Shown here: one piece after another, positions 6,602 through 59,228 of the stretch
Numbering within the stretch: the stretch's first letter is position 1
Layout: the number at the start of each line of letters is the position of its first letter
Source of the DNA: Salvelinus alpinus
Taxonomy: Eukaryota; Chordata; Actinopteri; Salmoniformes; Salmonidae
Reading direction: 5' to 3'
DNA: 64,000 nt
Assembly (NCBI RefSeq): GCF_045679555.1
Contig: NC_092099.1
Coordinates: 13,902,076 to 13,966,075 of the forward strand
Position numbers and translations under genes: made by a program
The notes under the pieces: model-generated
The model's database searches: none
The model's input: the letters and a program-made list of their open reading frames with translations, nothing else
What the model was told of the DNA's origin: nothing

Positions 6602-25819
<19,218 letters not shown>

Positions 25820-26973: not shown

Positions 26974-27918
26974 ATGTCAGAGCAAAAACCAATCCACGAG
27001 GTCGAAGGAATTGTCCATAGAGATCAGAGACAGGATTGTGTCGAGGCACAGATCTGGGGAAGGGTACAAAAACATTTCTGCAGCATTGAAGGTCTCCAAG
27101 AACACAGTGGCCTCTCATTTTTAAATGGAAGAAGTTTGGAACCACCAGGACTCTTCCTAGAGCTGGCCGCCTGGCCAAACTGAGCAATCGGGGTAGAAGG
27201 ACCTTCGTCGGGAATTGACCAAGAACCCGATGGTCACTCTGACAGAGCTCCAGAGTTCCTCTGTGGAGATGGGAGAACCTTCCAGAAGGACAACCATCTC
27301 TGCAGCACTCCAACAATCAGGCCTTTATGGTAGAGTGGCCAGACGGAAGCCACACCTCAGTAAAAGGCACATGACAGCCCGCTTGGAGTTTGCCAAAAGG
27401 CACCTAAAGCACTCTCAGACCATGAGAAACAAGATTCTCTGGTCTGATGAAACCAAGATTGAACTCTTTGGCCTGAATGCCATGTGTCCCATCTGGAGGA
27501 AACCTGGCACAATCCCTACGGTGAAGCATGGTGGTGGCAGCATCATGCTGTGTGGATGTATTTCAGCAGCAGGGACTGGGAGACTAGTCAGGATCAAGGG
27601 AAAGATGAACAGAGCAAAGTACAGAGAGATCCTTGATGAAAACCTGCTCAGGATCTCAGACTGGGACAACGGTTCACCTTCCAACAGGACAACGACCCTA
27701 AGCACACAGCCAAGACAATGCAGGAGTGGCTTCGGGACAAGTCTCTGAATGTCCTTGAGTGGCCCAGCCAGAGCCTGGACTTGAACTGGATTGAATATCT
27801 CTGGAGAGACCTGAAAATAGCTGTGCAGCAACGCTCCCCATCCAACCTGACAGAGTTTGAGAGGATTTGTAGAGAAGAATGGGAGAAGTGTCATAGCCAA
27901 GACAACTCGAGGCTGTAA
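26974..27918 (+). pseudogene. Tc1-like transposase, broken
   Basis: 27215-27748 reads [37 protein letters not shown] and [13 protein letters not shown]. The frame then shifts and 27718-27918 gives [20 protein letters not shown], the catalytic Glu region. The N-terminal part (27000-27200) is in yet other frames. It is the same subfamily as the fragment at 2757-3020. Inactive. Confidence 0.88.
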
Positions 27919-28011: not shown

Positions 28012-28086
28012 AAAAATAAAAAACGGAAATATCAAATTTCAATATGTATTCAGACCCTCTGAATACATATTGAAATTTGATATTTC
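28012..28086. repeat. Inverted duplication (hairpin) at the Tc1 right end
   Basis: The left arm 28012-28051 (...GGAAATATCAAATTTCAATA...) is followed by a 9-nt loop (28052-28060) and the exact inverse from 28061 (GAATACATATTGAAATTTGA). The right arm is interrupted at 28086 by a LINE and resumes at 28575 (CGTTTTTTATTTTTATT). Confidence 0.8.
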
Positions 28087-28567
28087 ATTTACATTACATT
28101 TAAGTCATTTAGCAGACGCTCTTATCCAGAGCGACTTACAAATTGGTGCATTCACCTTATGATATCCAGTGGAACAACCACTTTACAATAGTGCATCTAA
28201 CTCTTTTAAGGGGGGGGGGGGGGGGGGTTAGAAGGATTACTTTATCCTATCCTAGGTATTCCTTAATTAAAGAGGTGGGGTTTCAGGTGTCTCCGGAAGG
28301 TGGTGATTGACTCCGCTGACCTGGCGTCGTGAGGGAGTTTGTTCCACCATTGGGGTGCCAGAGCAGCGAACAGTTTTGACTGGGCTGAGCGGGAACTGTA
28401 CTTCCTCAGAGGTAGGGAGGCGAGCAGGCCAGAGGTGGATGAACGCAGTGCCCTTGTTTGGGTGTAGGGCCTGATCAGAGCCTGAAGGTACGGAGGTGCC
28501 GTTCCCCTCACAGCTCCGTAGGCAAGCACCATGGTCTTGTAGCGGATGCGAGCTTCAACTGGAAGCC
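28087..28567 (-). mobile_element. 5'-truncated L2-like LINE copy, 481 bp, TSD ATATTTC
   Basis: ATATTTC occurs at 28080-28086 and 28568-28574 exactly around the insert. On -, the frame 28532-28263 gives MVLAYGAVRGTAPPYLQALI to RRHLKPHLF, identical to the other copies until the last residues, where a 4-bp TTAA insertion changes the end. The G-tract (28211-28227) and TTACATTTAAGTCATTTAGC tail are present. Confidence 0.9.
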
Positions 28568-28702
28568 ATATTTCCGTTTTTTATTTTTATTTTTTTCCGT
28601 TTTTTATTTTATTAACATATATTTTATCAATTTTAGAATATGGCTGTAACGTAACAAAATGTGGAAAAAGTCAAAGGGTCTGAATACTTAACGAATGCAC
28701 TG

Positions 28703-29694: not shown

Positions 29695-30197
29695 GAAGTA
29701 AATCAAAGTGACTTTTGCAACTGACACAAATAGACTCATACTTCATGCGCCAAATGACAAATTGTTAATTTTTAAGCCACTGTTTTGCAATGTTTCACTA
29801 ATGTAACAAATGGCATGACTTTAGGGGTTTGACAAAGGGAGATCCGCTCTACGCACGCGTGCCAAATATAAGGGTCCCACCCTCTACCTGAAAGGAGCGC
29901 ACCTGAATCCAACGAGACGGAAGTAGTTTGCAAAGATTGAGAAACGAAGTAAATCAAAGTGACTTTTGCAACTGACACAAATAGACTCATACTTCATGCG
30001 CCAAATGACAAATTGTTAATTTTTAAGCCACTGTTTTGCAATGTTTCACTAATGTAACAAATGGCATGACTTTAGGGGTTTGACAAAGGGAGATCCGCTC
30101 TACGCACGCGTGCCAAATATAAGGGTCCCACCCTCTACCTGAAAGGAGCGCACCTGAATCCAACGAGACGGAAGTAGTTTGCAAAGATTGAGAAACG
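29695..30197 (+). promoter_or_regulatory. galnt3: Tandemly duplicated 251-bp segment with TATA-like box upstream of galnt3
   Basis: Copy 1 (29695-29945) and copy 2 (29946-30196) appear identical by eye. Each carries CCAAATATAAGGGTCCCACC, with TATAAG at 29867-29872 and 30118-30123, plus an ACGCACGCGT motif just upstream. The second TATA-like box lies about 230 bp before a good splice donor (CCCGGTAAGT, GT at 30352), which would end a noncoding first exon. The coding exon then starts at 30666 after TTTCTTTTTAAG. Promoter function is inferred from position and sequence. Confidence 0.6.
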
Positions 30198-30744: not shown

Positions 30745-38711
<7,967 letters not shown>

Positions 38712-42965: not shown

Positions 42966-45900
42966 CTAAACTGGTGCGACCTGGGGGAGATTCTCTGCTA
43001 ATGCAGAGGTCTTTGTACTGTCTGCTAGAGAAGGCCCTTCAGACAAATCATTAGCACTAGACACTTCCTTTGGCTGCTCTGTTACAAAACACTTCCCATT
43101 ACTACCGTAGCCTTTCTGGGAGCTCTTATTGTTCAGGTAGTTGTTGTGGAACTCCATCTGGCTAATGCCCCCAGGCTGCTCAGGGAATGTTCCTTTAGAT
43201 TGGACCATGTTGTTTTCCAGGTCAGGTGTGCAGCAGCCCATGGCAGTGGTTGCTGCTCTGCCGTTGGTCAGGGTAAAGTGTTGATTGGTGTACTGTTCCT
43301 CAGCCTGGTGGGCGTAGTCTGTGTACTGCTCTGCCTTGTCGGCGGCCATGTTGAATGGTCCTTGTGGCATGGCCCCGCTGCTAGTGCTAACTGGGTGTGG
43401 GAATGATAAGGCCTCTCCGTAAGTTTCACTGGGTTGGCTGGCCGTCCCGTTGGCAGAGGCAACAGCACTGGGGTTCTCCTGCTGATAATACTCGGCTTGG
43501 GAGCTGAGTAAATAAGAGTTTCCATTCATGTGCTTTTCAATGTGGTTGTCCTGTGGCACGGTGCCATCAGAGTAACACAACACAGAGGACAGGGGGACAA
43601 CCTCTGTGTGGGACACAGGCGCCGTCCTCACACCATCCTCAAAGTCCTCCGACTTCTCCTCCTCCTCATCCTCCTCTTCCTCAGAGTCACTGTTAGCCAA
43701 GCTCCGAGTGCTGGAGTCAGACAGTCCGCTGCATAAACTGCTGTTGTCCTCTTCGTCCTCCTCATCCTCCTCATTCTCCTCATCGTCCTCATCCTCATCA
43801 TCTAGAGGCTCTTCCATGTTGTCAGCTGTCTGGAGGTGCATGATGGCAGACTGTTGGAGTGTTGGGTCTGTCAGAGAGTACTCCAGACTATGTTGGGTCT
43901 GGACCAGCGGGTTGCCGTGGCTGTGGCTGTTGCTTTCGCCATGGTAACCATTGGCAGGGGAGGCCTGCTGCTGCTCGCGGCTCTTCTCCAGCTCTAGCTT
44001 CATGATGGTGTGCAGGAAGTGGGTCCGTACACGGATGGGGTTAAATTCCACCCGGCCGGCCGCGTTGCTACAGCCCTCCTTGGTACAGCCACAGGGAAAA
44101 GACATGCGGTCCACCTGTAGATTGGACCACATTGGGTTATATGACCATATATTCTCCAGTTTGCATGTAATAGATGAATTAGTGTAATCCTTTTGGCAAT
44201 ATCAGATAAGCAACTGTAATTATATAATGCTTTTTCAATAATGCAGTGCTTTCATCTACAGCGTCTAAAATATTTGATCACTTAACGATACATCAGCGTC
44301 AGTATGTCTGGGTCAGACTACCCAGAGATTTACCTGGCATTTGATTCCTGCTACACTGCACGCACATGTCTCTGGGTCACAGAACACTCTGCAGTCGCAG
44401 CCACAGTCCTCCCTGGACAACCGGATGGCCCGCAGCTCGTGCTTCTCCTCCACGTCAATTTTCTTCACCCCCGAGGTCCGCAGCAGAGCCCGGCGCTTCT
44501 TCGTGGTGAGGGGCTGGAGGAAGAAGTACTCATCCACCTCCGTGTTTTCCAGGTCAATGTCATCGTCAGAGATGTCCTCAGCCGTGAGCGTGTTGGCCTC
44601 CTCCGACTCCACTGTACCGTTCTTAGTCAGCTGAAAACGAACGAGGGGGGATCAAATTCAGTCTGGTTTGAAGAGTAAGCAACCAGCCGAAACAAATGAC
44701 ATACTGCATCTCAAAAGAGGATACAGAGTTAGCCGTTGAAAACACGTTCTGGATTTCTACGAGGATATGCTATGTCACAACTGTGCATCTAGTACCGTCT
44801 GTATATCATGATGCACTATATCATCTCCCTGTGTACAGTACATTTCATTAGCTCAGTAGCTTCCGTTTCTTTTAATACCTTGAGTTTAATGGAGTTGATT
44901 TTCTCCTCCTTCAGATGATCTCGGAGCATGTCTCTGTGGATCCTCTCCTGCTCCAGGGCAAACTCTCCCAGGGAGAACTGCCTGACACAGCTGTGTCTGT
45001 TGGACATGCCCAGCGTACTGCCTCCCTGACTGGGCACACTGGTGAAACCCTGGCGCCGGCTGAAGTAGTACACCGTCACGTTCTCAAAGTGCACCCTCCT
45101 CGTCCTCACACGCTTCTCTCGCTTCAGTATGGAATCAGCTAGAGGACCAAATGAAGAAGAAGTGGACGGTAAAAGGAGCATTAAAAAGCAGTGATAGCTG
45201 GCCTACTCATACATGAATAACAGGGGGAAGCAGGGTTATTTGTTCATACATGAATGAAAGATTAAACAGTTCCATGTGGTGGAACCGCCAGTATGACAAA
45301 AAGCTAGATTTAACCATCATTACAGCATGCAAGAACAAGAACACTGTTTCAAGGAAATGCACCTATTTAAAACTGCATCATGTACATGGGAAAGTGTTGT
45401 ATGTTTTTGCTGTCTGTGATGCGCTCTCAATGGTGTAGATGTGTAGCCATACTACAACAAGATAAAAAAAAAACGTTATATTCTGTGCTTACTTACTATT
45501 TGCATGATTTGAATACCTATTTTTATTTGACTTTTCATGACCCTAGAACCTCAGGAGTCGTTTTGCTAGCTCTCAGACAACAAGGACATGCTGTAACCCA
45601 ACCCAGTTCAGTAAAGCAGTGTTTCATCATCCCAACGCTGCCATTTGGCATGTCGATCCTACTTGTGGCTTTTTAAGGGCAGTTCTATGAGAGGGAGGGA
45701 GGGAGGGAGGGGAAAAAGGAAAGCAAAGACTGAGAGCATAAATAATCCCCCTTCCTGGCCTGGATGTAGAGTCGCTTTCCCAGCGGTCACTTGAGGTCAG
45801 ACAAACAGGACAAATGGGGACCATCTGGTTGGTGCAGCTCTCCACCCGGTGCCATAAGGACAATGTCTTCATTAACAACATGGGAGTGCCAGTCTGGGCT

Positions 45901-48900
45901 TCATGATTGGAATTTTTCTTTATTGTCTTGAAAAAAGGTTTATAAAATGTTATTTTGGGTATCCACGTGGTTTTCAAGCTTGCACCCTGAAGAAGGCACA
46001 GTGATGCCGAAACGTTGGTGTTTTTCTTACCCAATAAATTACTGGGAGGTTATACATGTGGCTCTCTTTGTTTTTAAAGCTTGCAATACCTAAATTCAAA
46101 AGGCACTAGCACATCTGAGCAATCTTATTTGCAGGTGCATGGCAACAATTTAACAAGATGAAGGAAAAAGGAAACCGCACACTGCTCTTGATAGTATCAC
46201 TGATATTTAATAAGCTTACGTATCGGCCTCACGGCCTTCGTCAGAGCTTTTGTGATTTTTTTAAATTTGCACCCTTATGTAGACCTGGCCCCACCCACAT
46301 CCGTTCCACACATCGAAGGGGGTTGGAGGCAAAGGAAAAACAAACAAGTGCTACCAAATATAACAATATGCATTTCATAAATATTACAAAAGTGTATAAA
46401 CAAGACGTATTGAACACGTCTGTAAAACCACAATGAAGACATAGCAAGTTTTCATTAATCATTGGGTACATCGTACGACAAACATCAGAGTAATCTGAAA
46501 TAGGCACATAATTCATGTTCAAATTCACAACATAACATACATAGGCATTTCATCATTAAGACCTTTAAGAAATAATGTCTAGAGGGTGAAAATCCCAAAA
46601 CATTATTTTTTACTCAGAGTATTATTAATATCACCTCCCCTGTCTGATATCTTAACTTTCTCTATGCCACAAAATCTAAAAGGTAGAAATGTCATGCTTC
46701 AGGTCATTGAAATGTACAGCGACTGGATAATCCCTGTCGTTTCTCCTGATTGAACCTATATGTTCACAAATTCTCTGTTTGAGAGAGCGGGAGATTTTAC
46801 CGACATAGCAGAGCCCACATGGACATTTAATAATGTAAATAACATGGGTGGTGGAACACGTAATAATGTCATTTATTTTGGAACCGTTTTCCTGTGTGTG
46901 GGTGGCAGAAATATTCACACTTCATCATATTGTTGCACTGTGCGCATCCTCTGCATTTATAGCTACCATTTGGTAGAGGGCGTAAAAGAGCCTGGCTGAT
47001 TTTCTTTATTGGCTGGTGTAACGGATGTGAAATGGCTAGCTAGTTAGCGGGTACGCGCTAGTAGCATTTCAATCAGTTACGTCACTTGCTCTGAGACTTA
47101 AGTAGTGTTGCCCCTTGCTTTGCAAGGGCCGCGGCTTTTGTGGAGCGATGGGTAACGACCGTGCTTCGTGGGCGACTGTTGTCGATGTGTGCAGAGGGTC
47201 CCTGGTTCGCGCCCGAGTCGGGGCGAGGGGACGGTTTAAAGTTATACTGTTACATTGATGCTGTTGACCCGGATCACTGGTTGCTGCGGAAAAAGGAGGA
47301 GGTTGAAAGGGGGGGTGAGTGTAACGGATGTGAAATGGCTAGCTAGTTAGCGGGTACGCGCTAGTAGCATTTCAATCAGTTACGTCACTTGCTCTGAGAC
47401 TTAAGTAGTGTTGCCCCTTGCTTTGCAAGGGCCGCGGCTTTTGTGGAGCGATGGGTAACGACCGTGCTTCGTGGGCGACTGTTGTCGATGTGTGCAGAGG
47501 GTCCCTGGTTCGCGCCCGAGTCGGGGCGAGGGGACGGTTTAAAGTTATACTGTTACACTGGCAGTTGGCATGAACCAATTTATCGCGTAAATTGCGACCT
47601 CTCCTATACACAATAAGTGGTGGATTTTTAAATTCAGGCGGCAAAACTGGGTCCGATGATAAAATACGCTAGTGTTTCTTGACCACACCTCCCACTTTTC
47701 GCGAATTCAAAGTATATATGTAGTTGTGAACATTACGGAGTGTTCTTTAGCGGGTCTTTTTTGTAGCAGTTCATCTCGTGTTTTTTCCAATGCCAGATTA
47801 TGAGCTTCATCCACACATTGTGACAAGCATGGACGTATGGCATTTGCAGCAAAGATATTCATATTCAGGTTTTGAGATAAGGTTGTTTAATAGGGCTTGC
47901 TCCAGATTAGAGCATATATCCCTTTGGAACACCTGTGTGGGATCAACACTCAGTTTTCTATAGAAACGTTCATTGCTGAGTTGTCTCTGAATTTCTTCTT
48001 GATATTTTTCATAGTCTAAAACAACCACAGCACCCCCCTTGTCTGCAGGTTTTATAACCAAAGATGAATCTTTCATTCATTCATTGAGTGCCTTTTCTTC
48101 TGTTCTTGCGATACCTAACATAGTTGGATTTTTCTCTGTATTTCTTCCTATTTCTTGTCCATTTTCGATTAGGGTTGCTACAACCATGTCTAAAAATGTA
48201 TCTTTGAGAATACATAGTAGCCCTTTTCAAAGACCTCACAATTCCAAGGCTTCTTCACTAAAAGCAATCACACCAGGAGAGGAGCTGGATTATTTCTTCA
48301 ACACTAACGTGACCCGAGACAGGTTTGTTCTGTATTCACCAGGAAACAATGCTACTGTACATCTCAGGAGCAAGCCTGATACATTGTGGCACCTCTTTAG
48401 TGGGGAGAAGCTGGGGGAGCCATGTATTGTGCTGCATAGTGCAGACTACAGCTTAGAGTAGCGTCCTCCTGGTTGCCTTTATCTGCAGCAGCTGACACAG
48501 AAGGCTCAGGAGCCTGGGGAAACAGTACCCTGGTCACTGGTCCACACATACCCCTGGGAGGAGCCCTGTCACTCACACCCATAATAAACCAGGGCAGGGT
48601 TACTGTATGCATCTGTCACCAAACACAACATAGATCTGTCACCTGAGGAACCATCCACCAAATTTTCCGTAGGTTGCCTACGAATAGCATCATATCTGCT
48701 CATAGAAAGATACAGGTAATCTAATACACAGTTCTTTTTTATCAGTGGCGCCATCAGTGGTGCCTGCCAAACTGGCTGTAGCCTTTCCAATAAGTAGCTG
48801 TGGAGCAGAGAACAGGTTCACTCGACTGAGAGCTTCTTAGAGAGCCTGACAGACACACCAATAGCTTTGCACGTGGCTAGAGACGAGACAGCCCGCACTA

Positions 48901-51453
48901 TGGCTACTTAGCTGAGAACACAGACACTACACTAGTTTAACTCAGACATGGCTAGAGACTAGACAGTCCTCCCTATGGCTACTCAGCTGAGAACACAGAC
49001 ACTACACTAGTTCAGCTCAGACATGGCTAGAGACTAGACAGCCCTCCCTATGGCTGCTCAGCTGAAAACACAGACACTAGTTCAGCTCAGACATGGCTAG
49101 AGACTAGACAGTCCTCCCTATGGCTGCTCAGCTGAGAACACAGACACTAGTTCAGCTCAGACATGGCTAGAGACTAGACAGCCCTCCCTATGGCTGCTCA
49201 GCTGAGAACACATACACTAGTTCAGCTCAGACATGGCTAGAGACTAGACAGCCCTCCCTATGGCTGCTCAGCTGAAAACACAGACACTAGTTCAGCTCAG
49301 ACATGGCTAGAGACTAGACAGTCCTCCCTATGGCTGCTCAGCTGAGAACACAGACACTAGTTCAGCTCAGACATGGCTAGAGACTAGACAGTCCTCCCTA
49401 TGGCTGCTCAGCTGAGAACACATACACTAGTTCAGCTCAGACATGGCTAGAGACTAGACAGTCCTCCCTATGGCTGCTCAGCTGAGAACACAGACACTAG
49501 TTCAGCTCAGACATGGCTAGAGACTAGACAGTCCTCCCTATGGCTGCTCAGCTGAGAACACAGACACTAGTTCAGCTCAGACATGGCTAGAGACTAGACA
49601 GCCCTCCCTATGGCTGCTCAGCTGAGAACACAGACACTAGTTCAGCTCAGACATGGCTAGAGACTAGACAGTCCTCCCTATGGCTGCTCAGCTGAGAACA
49701 CAGACACTAGTTCAGCTCAGACATGGCTAGAGACTAGACAGCCCTCCCTATGGCTGCTCAGCTGAGAACACAGACACTAGTTCAGACAAAAAATACATAA
49801 ATTACCAGGATTTCTGTGTTAATATGGAGGAATTAAAAATAATCGTATTTCTATACTAGTGGTGCGAGGCTAAGCTGAAAATGTGGACTCAGTAAAACAC
49901 TTTGTGATAAAAGCACCAAATTTGGCACAGAGGTAGATATACACTACATGACCAAAAGTATGTGCACACCTGCTAGTCAAACATCTCATTGCAAAACCAT
50001 GGGCATTAATATGGAGTTGGTCCCCCTTTGATGCTATAACATCCTCCACTCTTCTGGGAATGCTTTACACTAGATGTTGGAACATTGCTGCAGGGATTTG
50101 CCTCCATTCAGCCATAAGAGCATTAGTGAGGTTGGGCACTGATGTTGGGCGATTAGGCCTGGCTCGCAGTCGGCGTTCCAATACAACCCAATGGTGTTCG
50201 ATGGAGTCGAGGTCAGGACATAGGTGGCATCCTATGACGGTCCCACGTTGAAAGTCACTAAGCTCTTTAGTAAGGCCATTCTACTGCCAATTTCTGGCTA
50301 TGGAGATTGCATGGATATGTGCTCGATTTTATACACGTCAGCAACGGGTGTGGCTGAAATAGCCAAATCCACTAATTTTAAGGGGTGTCCACATACTTTT
50401 GTATATATAGTGTACAGTATGAAAATATATAGATATGGAGACACCCCAGATTTGGCCCCTGGGGGGCATGGCAGCCACTATAAAAAAAATCAATAGGCCC
50501 ATATATTGCCCATATTGGTGGCCATCTTAGGTCCTACCGTTATGTCAGATTAGCTCAGTCACCAATTTCTCAGCCTCTGAGTATCACAGAAGCACACACT
50601 TTGAATTAATAAATGACACATGTTCATAAGAAGTGGCTATGAAAGAAATTGATCAAAATCTGTTCATAGCATGGTAAACATACAAAAACATATGTTTTCA
50701 AACATCAAATTTGACTATACATGTGAGATTGTTTTTACATGAATGCTTATCTTTGAGAAATTAAACCATTTACTTGTATTACAAAAACCTAATCAAATCT
50801 AAAGTGTCACTGCTTGACAGAGAGTGTCTCTTTGCAATCATTACCAGTTTGGGGTCAAAATGGACCCCCCCCCTTTGCGATAAAAATATTTTGCCGCTTT
50901 CAGGGTTAAAGCACACAGATTGATCCAGTTTTTTCTCTTTCCTCTTCAACTGTGTTATCGGAATTATATTCCTACTGGCTATGGGTTGTTTTTGGCTTCA
51001 GAACTCAGAACATCACAAGTTATTATTGACAATATGTTTCCTAACACACTCAACATCCATTACAAAAGCAACATTATGATGGATTAGTAACAGAATGACA
51101 CATGCTTCATTAAAAAAGGAATGTCTCTTTCACTAATGTACAATATGAACAATGAATGTAGCTATTTGTTCGTTCTTTCGACACTGTGTCAGTGTTGAGC
51201 ATATCAATGAGTGTTTTGTAGTGTTTCGTTGACTGTAGGGGGAGAGAGCAGTGTGTGTGTGTGTGCATGTGTGTGTGTGCTTGTGTGTGTGGGAGCCAGG
51301 TGACTCACGGGTGAAGGTGGCCGAGGCCGAGGGGTTGACACTGTCGCTGCTGTCCCCGCTCTCGCTGCAGGAGACCTCGTAATCAGACTCCCGCAACGAG
51401 GAGCATGGCGAGGAGGACACCTCCTCAAACCTCCTCTTAAGTATTCCGCTCAT
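42966..51453 (-). CDS. csrnp3: Cysteine/serine-rich nuclear protein 3 (4 coding exons, 616 aa)
   Basis: Member of the CSRNP/AXUD1 family, nuclear DNA-binding transcription regulators. Exons in transcript order: 51453-51309, 45138-44879, 44630-44334, 44114-42966, all GT-AG, phases 1, 0 and 0, stop TAG at 42968-42966. The N-terminus [12 protein letters not shown] and the [20 protein letters not shown] block are family hallmarks. Exon 2 carries [16 protein letters not shown] and [20 protein letters not shown]. Exon 3 has KKRRALLR (basic, possible nuclear signal) and [18 protein letters not shown]. The Cys-rich domain continues in exon 4 ([20 protein letters not shown]), about residues 210-275. 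Acidic tracts lie at about 339-358 and 376-388. Human CSRNP3 is 585 aa, and the extra length is in the acidic, low-complexity C-terminal half. The 5' UTR reaches an acceptor at 51482, so at least one more upstream noncoding exon exists. Converges with galnt3. Confidence 0.96.
46160..48076 (-). pseudogene. Penelope-like retroelement remnant with GIY-YIG endonuclease domain
   Basis: In csrnp3 intron 1, same strand as the gene. On -, 48076-47810 reads [20 protein letters not shown] and [19 protein letters not shown], the N-terminal part of a Penelope-like RT. The RT core with its catalytic Asp motif is deleted. Then [20 protein letters not shown] (47640-47565), a Cys cluster CRGCAQCNN (about 46940) and the GIY-YIG domain, [19 protein letters not shown] with [14 protein letters not shown] (46840-46720). 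A CGGCCTCACGGCCTTCGTCA stretch near 46224 fits the 3' end. Interrupted by the two-LTR element at 47017-47557. Confidence 0.75.
47017..47557 (+). mobile_element. Miniature two-LTR element (TRIM-like): 238-bp LTR, 65-bp interior, 238-bp LTR
   Basis: LTR1 47017-47254 and LTR2 47320-47557 look identical base for base. Both begin TGTAACGGATGTG and end ATACTGTTACA (TG...CA). CTGG flanks the whole unit (47013-47016 and 47558-47561), fitting a 4-bp target duplication. The interior (47255-47319) starts TTGATGCTGTTGACCCGG where a primer site would be, and ends in a purine run (AAAAAGGAGGAGGTTGAAAG, then GGGGGG) just before LTR2, like a polypurine tract. It has no coding capacity. Each LTR carries GGTTCGCGCCC (47204-47214, 47507-47517), resembling a pol III box B. 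A 303-bp tandem duplication is the alternative, but it would not explain the CTGG repeats. Strand is set by the purine tract. Confidence 0.72.
48871..49787. repeat. 70-bp minisatellite, 13 units
   Basis: Units start with ACATGGCTAGAGACTAGACA at 48871 (variant), 48946, 49021, then every 70 bp to 49721. The first two units are 75 bp, with an extra ACACT. Units differ at a few sites (GTCCTCCC or GCCCTCCC, CAGACAC or CATACAC, GAGAACA or GAAAACA). It lies in csrnp3 intron 1 and shows no coding frame or spacer-repeat organisation. Confidence 0.97.
49942..50412. mobile_element. Nonautonomous Tc1/mariner-like element (471 bp)
   Basis: Left CACTACATGACCAAAAGTAT, right inverse (ACATACTTTTGTATATATAG TG), TA on both sides (49940-49941, 50413-50414). 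The interior keeps decayed transposase codons on -. It shares ends with the fragment at 4537-4811. Confidence 0.85.
51251..51291. repeat. TG/CA microsatellite next to csrnp3 exon 1
   Basis: Interrupted (TG)n on +, CA-rich on the transcript. It starts about 17 nt inside the intron from the splice donor of the first coding exon (exon end 51309). Confidence 0.95.
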
Positions 51454-52498: not shown

Positions 52499-52606
52499 TG
52501 CGTCCAAAATGGCACCCTATTCCCTATATAGTCGGGATTTTGTTAAAAGTAGTGCACTAAATAGGGAATATGGTGCCATTAGGAATAGGGCGCCATTCGG
52601 GATACA
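52499..52606. repeat. Short foldback repeat, copy 3
   Basis: GCGTCCAAAATGGCACCCTA ... GAATAGGGCGCCATTCGGGA, same family as 17924-18034. Confidence 0.65.
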
Positions 52607-58745: not shown

Positions 58746-59228
58746 TGTCACGCCCTGGCCTTAGTATTCTTTGTTTTCTTTATTTTTTTAGTTAGGTCAG
58801 GGTGTGACATGGGTATTTATGTGGGTTTTGTAGTGTCCAGGGTGATTGTAAGGTTTAGGGGGTTTATTTAGAGTAGTTGGCTTTATGTTTAGTATAGTTG
58901 TCTAGCTGTGTCTATGTTGTGTGTAGTTGTCTAGGAAAGTCTATGGTTGCCTGAATGGGTTCCCAATTAGAGACAGCTGGTTTCTGTTGTCTCTGATTGG
59001 GAGCCATATTTAAGGTAGCCATAGGCTTTAGTTTGGTGTGGGGAATTGTCTATGTACAACGTTTGTAGCCTGTGTGTGTGCACTATGTTATTTAGCTTCA
59101 CGATCATTTGTTGTTTTGGTAGTTTGTAAGTGTTTTGTTTCGTTTTGCCTTCTTCAATAATTAAAAGAAGATGGCTTATTTTCCTCATGCTGCGTTTTGG
59201 TCCGAATCTCTTCCACACGATCGTGACA
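58746..59228 (+). mobile_element. Solo LTR (Gypsy-like), 483 bp, TSD GTCAC
   Basis: Starts TGTCACGCCCTGGCC, ends CACGATCGTGACA, flanked by GTCAC (58741-58745 and 59229-59233). Its ends resemble the reverse-oriented LTR at 14842-15199, so it is a related family. No internal coding region. Confidence 0.85.

Follow-up and report, generated by a model that had tools for sequence, protein, structure and literature searches.

What is the pair of identical 238-bp repeats that lie 65 bp apart in this salmonid DNA: a complete miniature retrotransposon, the remnant of a tandem array, or a reduced copy of something larger? And if it is a retrotransposon, which polymerase would transcribe it? We analyzed the repeats, their flanks and the rest of the window (the whole 64,000-nt stretch of DNA), and compared the unit with published short LTR elements.

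Structure and insertion site of the 541-bp unit

Direct comparison of the two repeats revealed letter-for-letter equality (238/238), and the exact match reaches one base further leftward and none further rightward. A repeat search gives this pair a length of 242 nt, a 303-nt spacing and 99.587% identity, with one mismatch that falls in the outer bases. The repeats and their spacer make up 541 bp, the LTR termini are TGTAAC (start) and GTTACA (end), and CTGG both closes the left flank and opens the right flank. The sequence-only reading had described this architecture, and the repeats, their termini and their brackets proved exact to the base. The features of the unit and its surroundings are:

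47013..47016, unstranded: left target site duplication, CTGG (flank comparison; present once when the flanks are joined)
47017..47254, + strand: 5' LTR, 238 bp, TGTAAC...GTTACA (equal to the 3' LTR)
47255..47319, + strand: internal region, 65 bp, with no coding domain seen (sequence comparison; Pfam scan of two overlapping frames)
47256..47274, + strand: tRNA-His-like primer site (comparison with tRNA sequences)
47288..47319, + strand: interrupted polypurine tract that abuts the 3' LTR (base count)
47320..47557, + strand: 3' LTR, 238 bp (equal to the 5' LTR)
47558..47561, unstranded: right target site duplication, CTGG (flank comparison; joined empty site)
46676..48076, - strand: host site, a Penelope-like (GIY-YIG) element, decayed and with broken frames, apparently split by the insertion (PF01541 match; joined frame; presumed Penelope motifs)

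On these sequence features, the unit is very probably a TRIM (terminal-repeat retrotransposon in miniature), and a complete one. TRIMs are described as staying under 1000 bp, with a pair of near-identical LTRs that are ~100-250 bp long (PMC6934838), and the unit measures 541 bp with two identical LTRs of 238 bp. CTGG stands on both sides and a frame continues through the single-CTGG join. The earlier proposal of an LTR element of the TRIM kind is thus supported by the identical TG...CA LTRs, the 4-bp duplication, the frame-keeping empty site, the purine tract, a weak His-like site and the lack of a Pfam match. Its further claim that no protein can be encoded agrees with the frames that we found. 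Stop-to-stop frames of at least 60 aa that overlap the unit are 72-98 aa long, and Pfam (E up to 1) matched nothing in the two that were scanned, 47095-47346 (+) and 47069-47338 (-). A coding element was rejected on these grounds.

The flanks point to the sequence that received the element. A GIY-YIG-like stretch shows up in the translated left flank (match to PF01541 at E 0.0018, short of the curated cutoff), and the right flank encodes a protein motif that we take to be Penelope-type. If the element is removed together with one CTGG, a frame of 84 residues stays open from the right-flank motif across the junction into CQPIKKIS...CRGCAQC, while keeping or dropping both copies of CTGG shifts the upstream part to another frame. 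The two-CTGG and no-CTGG joins are also open (98 and 64 residues); the one-CTGG join is favored because the motif-bearing frame continues through it, not because of an open frame as such. Since flanks joined with one CTGG keep the Penelope-like frame, insertion is the most likely explanation. The GIY-YIG stretch and the junction peptide do not share a frame, and the host element must therefore have decayed. No relatives of the joined peptide were found in Pfam or PDB, so the Penelope label rests on the sub-cutoff GIY-YIG match and on presumed Penelope motifs. In viral contigs, seven stretches fit a short pattern from the peptide and none was confirmed.

Within the spacer, one base past the 5' LTR, the sequence agrees at 15/18 positions with the complement of tRNA-His and its CCA, and has one extra base. 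A comparison with tRNA 3' ends had been suggested earlier as a check; tRNA-His came out best of the 21 ends tried, and the match is an imperfect one. Its score was reached by 14 of 2000 random 24-mers from the window with the whole panel and by 1 of 5000 with His alone. The site is thus weakly tRNA-His-like, and its three mismatches and insertion count against it, as a fresh insertion should carry a good primer copy. Self-priming from the element's own RNA was rejected, with no exact complement of at least 8 nt to the first 30 spacer bases found within the unit. The purine run said to precede the second LTR is real (29/32 purines) but interrupted by two T's and by a T in the fourth position ahead of the LTR. 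Windows of 32 nt that are as purine-rich number 76 (+) and 31 (-) among 63,969, the element's own included.

The LTR pair shows 0/238 differences, for which the rule of three gives upper age bounds of 0.6, 1.3 and 2.9 million years at assumed rates of 1e-8, 5e-9 and 2.2e-9 per site per year. Each LTR contains 19 CpGs, with an observed/expected ratio of 1.17 vs 0.42 for the window; this ratio is reached by 8 of 536 window tiles, two of which overlap the element. The identity of the LTRs and their undecayed CpG fit a recent insertion, as had been claimed. The claim of a very recent date is tempered by gene conversion between the LTRs, which could also yield identity.

A TRIM of this kind would presumably be mobilised in trans. 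Its RNA would be reverse transcribed from a tRNA primer, probably tRNA-His, with enzymes supplied by an autonomous LTR retrotransposon partner. The purine tract would supply the primer of the second strand, and integration, with a 4-bp stagger, would be the work of the partner's integrase. Gypsy has been proposed as the partner of animal Helenus TRIMs (PMC10886601).

Further copies were not found in the 64-kb window: the LTR's best other matches there span 14 and 16 nt, and the spacer's best spans 23 nt at 87% (E at least 0.11). Collections other than fish gave a similar picture: exact patterns from the unit had no match in viral contigs and two in genome contigs (20-25 nt, bacterial, chance matches, both without ARAGORN tRNA genes), and blastn against phages and plasmids returned nothing at 1e-5. 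Short DNA strings of the element did not occur in the paper texts in which they were looked for. The LTR is presumably repeated in salmonids.

Several other origins of the unit have to be weighed against the TRIM reading. If the repeats arose by tandem duplication or are what remains of a 303-bp array (LTR-spacer-LTR), and owe their identity to recombination and not to reverse transcription, the outcome would be what is seen here, one spacer and two repeats and nothing more. TRIM arrays do exist, in zebrafish LTR-11_DR (PMC10886601) and Cassandra (PMC7215508), and a perfect tandem of 2 x 251 bp is present elsewhere in the window (29695-30197). However, the exact 4-bp duplication lies outside the repeats, the joined flanks keep frame, and the TG...CA ends, purine tract and primer-like site are where they would be expected, all of which makes a tandem origin improbable. 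A simple tandem duplication was rejected on the position of the 4-bp duplication at the outer edges and on the frame kept by the single-CTGG join; a former array may later have been reduced here to the present unit.

Internal deletion of one autonomous element, leaving a single defective copy without a family, accords with an element known from one copy. This origin too has little probability, in that the interior is pared down to a primer-like site and a purine tract, as in established TRIM families. Retrozymes are short non-autonomous LTR elements that bear a hammerhead, and those of plants have the same size class, 4-bp TSD and PBS/PPT layout (PMC4918200). Yet Rfam found no family, and so no hammerhead, in 46950-47620 at E up to 10, the LTR is shorter than the 300-400 bp described, and metazoan hammerhead repeats are reported without PBS/PPT motifs (both PMC4918200). 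The retrozyme reading was rejected and we give it almost no weight.

Promoter-like motifs and a predicted transcript

Taking the unit as a TRIM, we searched its LTR for features that bear on transcription, each of which is present once per LTR copy. They include a possible Pol III promoter, of which the sequence-only reading made no mention. The predicted transcript spans both copies.

47138..47151, again 47441-47454, + strand: box-A-like motif TTGTGGAGCGATGG, one mismatch to TRGYNNARYNNNGG (consensus scan)
47204..47214, again 47507-47517, + strand: box-B-like motif GGTTCGCGCCC, one mismatch to GGTTCRANYCC (consensus scan)
47136..47139, with the 3' LTR copy at 47439-47442, + strand: TTTT, the sole one of the 5' LTR and spacer, a possible Pol III terminator (motif scan)
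47106..47157, again 47409-47460, + strand: 23-bp hairpin in the LTR sense RNA (RNA folding)
47126..47442, + strand: hypothetical Pol III transcript, 317 nt (predicted from the boxes, the TTTT and RNA folding)

The two boxes have two mismatches jointly and lie at LTR positions 122 and 188, 66 nt apart, a spacing that exceeds that of most tRNA genes; the box-A consensus in this joint scan permits up to three extra bases. Their joint score was matched by 3 of 400 dinucleotide shuffles and by 1 of 400 random window pieces, the latter perhaps the element itself. Six of 1072 window tiles attained it: three are the element, one is at 43912 (+), and two overlap at 52599/52718 (-). As a control, 13/13 tRNA genes scored 0-2 in the same test. 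With simpler box-A forms, the site near 125 has three mismatches and another place in the LTR, 194, does better with two. The box-B-like motif lacks the A of the TTCRA core.

Likeness to a whole tRNA was not apparent. In local alignments of the LTR to 14 tRNAs, the best score was reached by 58/400 shuffles and that of tRNA-Val by 111/400. ARAGORN (bacterial code) reported no tRNA in the element region and the Rfam search of 46950-47620 (E up to 10) matched no family, and a canonical tRNA gene in the LTR was rejected accordingly. Judged from sequence, a tRNA promoter remnant in the LTR is plausible, with a recognisable tRNA absent. Separately, the minus-strand segment 52599-52955, which equals the LTR in the box A/B test, is possibly a tRNA-derived SINE.

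The hairpin occupies LTR positions 90-141, comprises 9 GC, 6 AU and 8 GU pairs, and includes both the TTTT and box A in its 3' arm. Its predicted stability is -31.9 kcal/mol on the + strand vs -14.3 on the - strand, and none of 200 shuffles was as stable on +, though the z-score is inflated because the 54-nt stretch was chosen after earlier folding results. Other parts of the window form hairpins that equal or exceed it in stability, at 15025 (-) and 58953/58957 (+), and stability alone is therefore not special. When 15,987 windows were folded on each strand, the strongest hairpin was the one at 58949-59014 (+), with -36.2 kcal/mol in 54 nt. Folded as a whole, the LTR is more stable than its shuffles in either orientation (z -2.88 and -2.69, 1/200 each), so that the sense-strand preference is limited to the hairpin. 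The LTR's last 75 nt and a 106-nt tRNA-like stretch fold about as their shuffles do (66/200 and 141/200 as stable).

Pol III usually starts ~12 nt upstream of box A and stops at a T run. A transcript that follows this rule would begin in the 5' LTR near unit position 110 and stop at the TTTT of the 3' LTR at position 426, giving an RNA of ~317 nt. TTTT occurs only at unit positions 120-123 and 423-426, with none in the spacer; the first copy lies ~10 nt downstream of the proposed start, and Pol III would therefore have to pass TTTT once. The RNA would have a very short terminal repeat of ~10-17 nt, and hairpin arms at its opposite ends would pair with each other. When the model RNA was folded (z -8.3, 0/100 shuffles), the arms paired end to end. 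Start 110 ranks third of 225 possible 317-nt starts, behind 109 and 108, a rank that is not independent because both termini of the proposed RNA fall within or beside the hairpin loop. Likewise, the hairpin, the T run and box A overlap, so they are not independent lines of evidence, and they come from a single sequence.

Choice of polymerase and relation to known TRIMs

TRIMs with tRNA-derived sequence in their LTRs are known as Helenus or TRIMp3 (Kojima 2024, PMC10886601). According to this paper, animal Helenus families have 4-bp target duplications, vertebrate families use tRNA-His, -Leu or -Lys as primers, the LTRs of fish families were aligned with tRNA-Val, and box B is conserved as GGTTC. 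The element is similar in its 4-bp TSD, in the GGTTC of its box B, in the order of primer-like site and PPT, in a primer match that may point weakly to tRNA-His, and in its apparently recent activity, which is seen in some fish Helenus (LTR-11_DR-related families, PMC10886601). It is unlike Helenus in that its tRNA likeness is limited to two boxes and is not significant over a whole tRNA. The host also differs: the fish tabulated are Ostariophysi (cypriniforms, catfish, milkfish), sterlet, paddlefish and coelacanth (PMC10886601), whereas salmonids are absent from Kojima's Table 1, and the likeness to LTR-11_DR is one of description. No paper on a salmonid Helenus or TRIM appeared by title among the matches listed. 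The earlier remark that vertebrate TRIMs are little described is partly outdated, as fish TRIMs have been published as Helenus/TRIMp3 (PMC10886601).

Canonical TRIM/SMART elements (plants, ants, bivalves, cestodes) share the two LTRs, the tiny non-coding interior and the PPT, and have a PBS where the element has its weak primer-like site. They correspond to TRIMp2, transcribed by Pol II, in Kojima's scheme (PMC10886601); the ant, bivalve and cestode families are likened here by description, and the PBS of bivalve TRIMs is described as not clear (PMC6934838). If the element were of this type, its A/B-box likeness and TTTT would be accidental. The empty results of the tRNA alignment and tRNA models agree with that, as do the incomplete core of box B and a two-box match that is modest at 3/400 shuffles. 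The same joint match nevertheless beats nearly all shuffles and window tiles, neither AATAAA nor ATTAAA was found in the unit by motif scan, and the 4-bp TSD with a His-like primer agrees with animal Helenus (PMC10886601). We regard a Pol II-transcribed TRIM as a substantial minority possibility and lean slightly towards Pol III transcription from a tRNA-like LTR promoter of the Helenus/TRIMp3 type. For Helenus and Ajax themselves, no conclusion on a functional Pol III promoter is drawn without experimental validation (PMC10886601).

The proposed Pol III transcript has an analogue in Cassandra, a plant TRIM whose transcript extends between the 5S sequences of its 5' and 3' LTRs and has an 18-bp repeat (PMC10886601), and whose structured RNA shows LTR-LTR pairing (PMC7215508). 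In our model the element would likewise have an LTR-borne Pol III promoter, a transcript that stops within the 3' LTR's promoter region, and pairing between LTRs. Unlike here, where it is tRNA-like at best, the Cassandra promoter derives from 5S rRNA, and the two are likened by description. The element could be a recently active, Pol III-transcribed, Helenus-like TRIM of a salmonid. The overlap of its TTTT and box A would then set a minimal terminal repeat, and its strand-specific LTR hairpin would open to an end-joining panhandle, possibly aiding first strand transfer. We offer this full scenario tentatively and consider it, taken as a whole, less likely than not.

The element is an additional TRIM of an already known type, possibly Helenus/TRIMp3, and it might widen the known range of fish Helenus families. 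The class of TRIMs with Pol III promoters was named only recently. Because the copy is apparently young, its boundaries are precise and its predicted transcript is simple, the Pol III claim would be directly testable in a well-sequenced group of farmed fish.

Other features of the window

The window is rich in other repeats. The tandem at 29695-30197 consists of two copies of 251 bp at 100% identity without a spacer, reflecting a recent duplication or an assembly effect. A 70-bp minisatellite (48874-49785, 12.9 copies, 96% matches) lies 1.3 kb from the element. Three L2-type LINE copies, 98-99% alike, are located at 7480-8319 (-), 16924-17762 (+) and 28083-28568; each has a UnaL2 3' element, and the second includes a reverse transcriptase domain.

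Tc1-like transposons or pieces of them occur at 1139-1969, 13251-16202, 27024-27883 and 31457-33079. Transposase domains were detected at 1139-1969 and 31674-32351, and the other pieces were recognised by mutual similarity. What we take to be salmonid Tc1 inverted ends are found at 31457-31483 (exact) and 33046-33072 (one mismatch), and a presumed salmonid HpaI-SINE tail at 14685-14717 (-) has 2 mismatches in 33. A salmonid SINE head and a second Tc1 end were not found in the window. Genes similar to TTC21B, a polypeptide N-acetylgalactosaminyltransferase and CSRNP stand in a row at 18898-44651, presumably in the vertebrate order ttc21b-galnt3-csrnp3.
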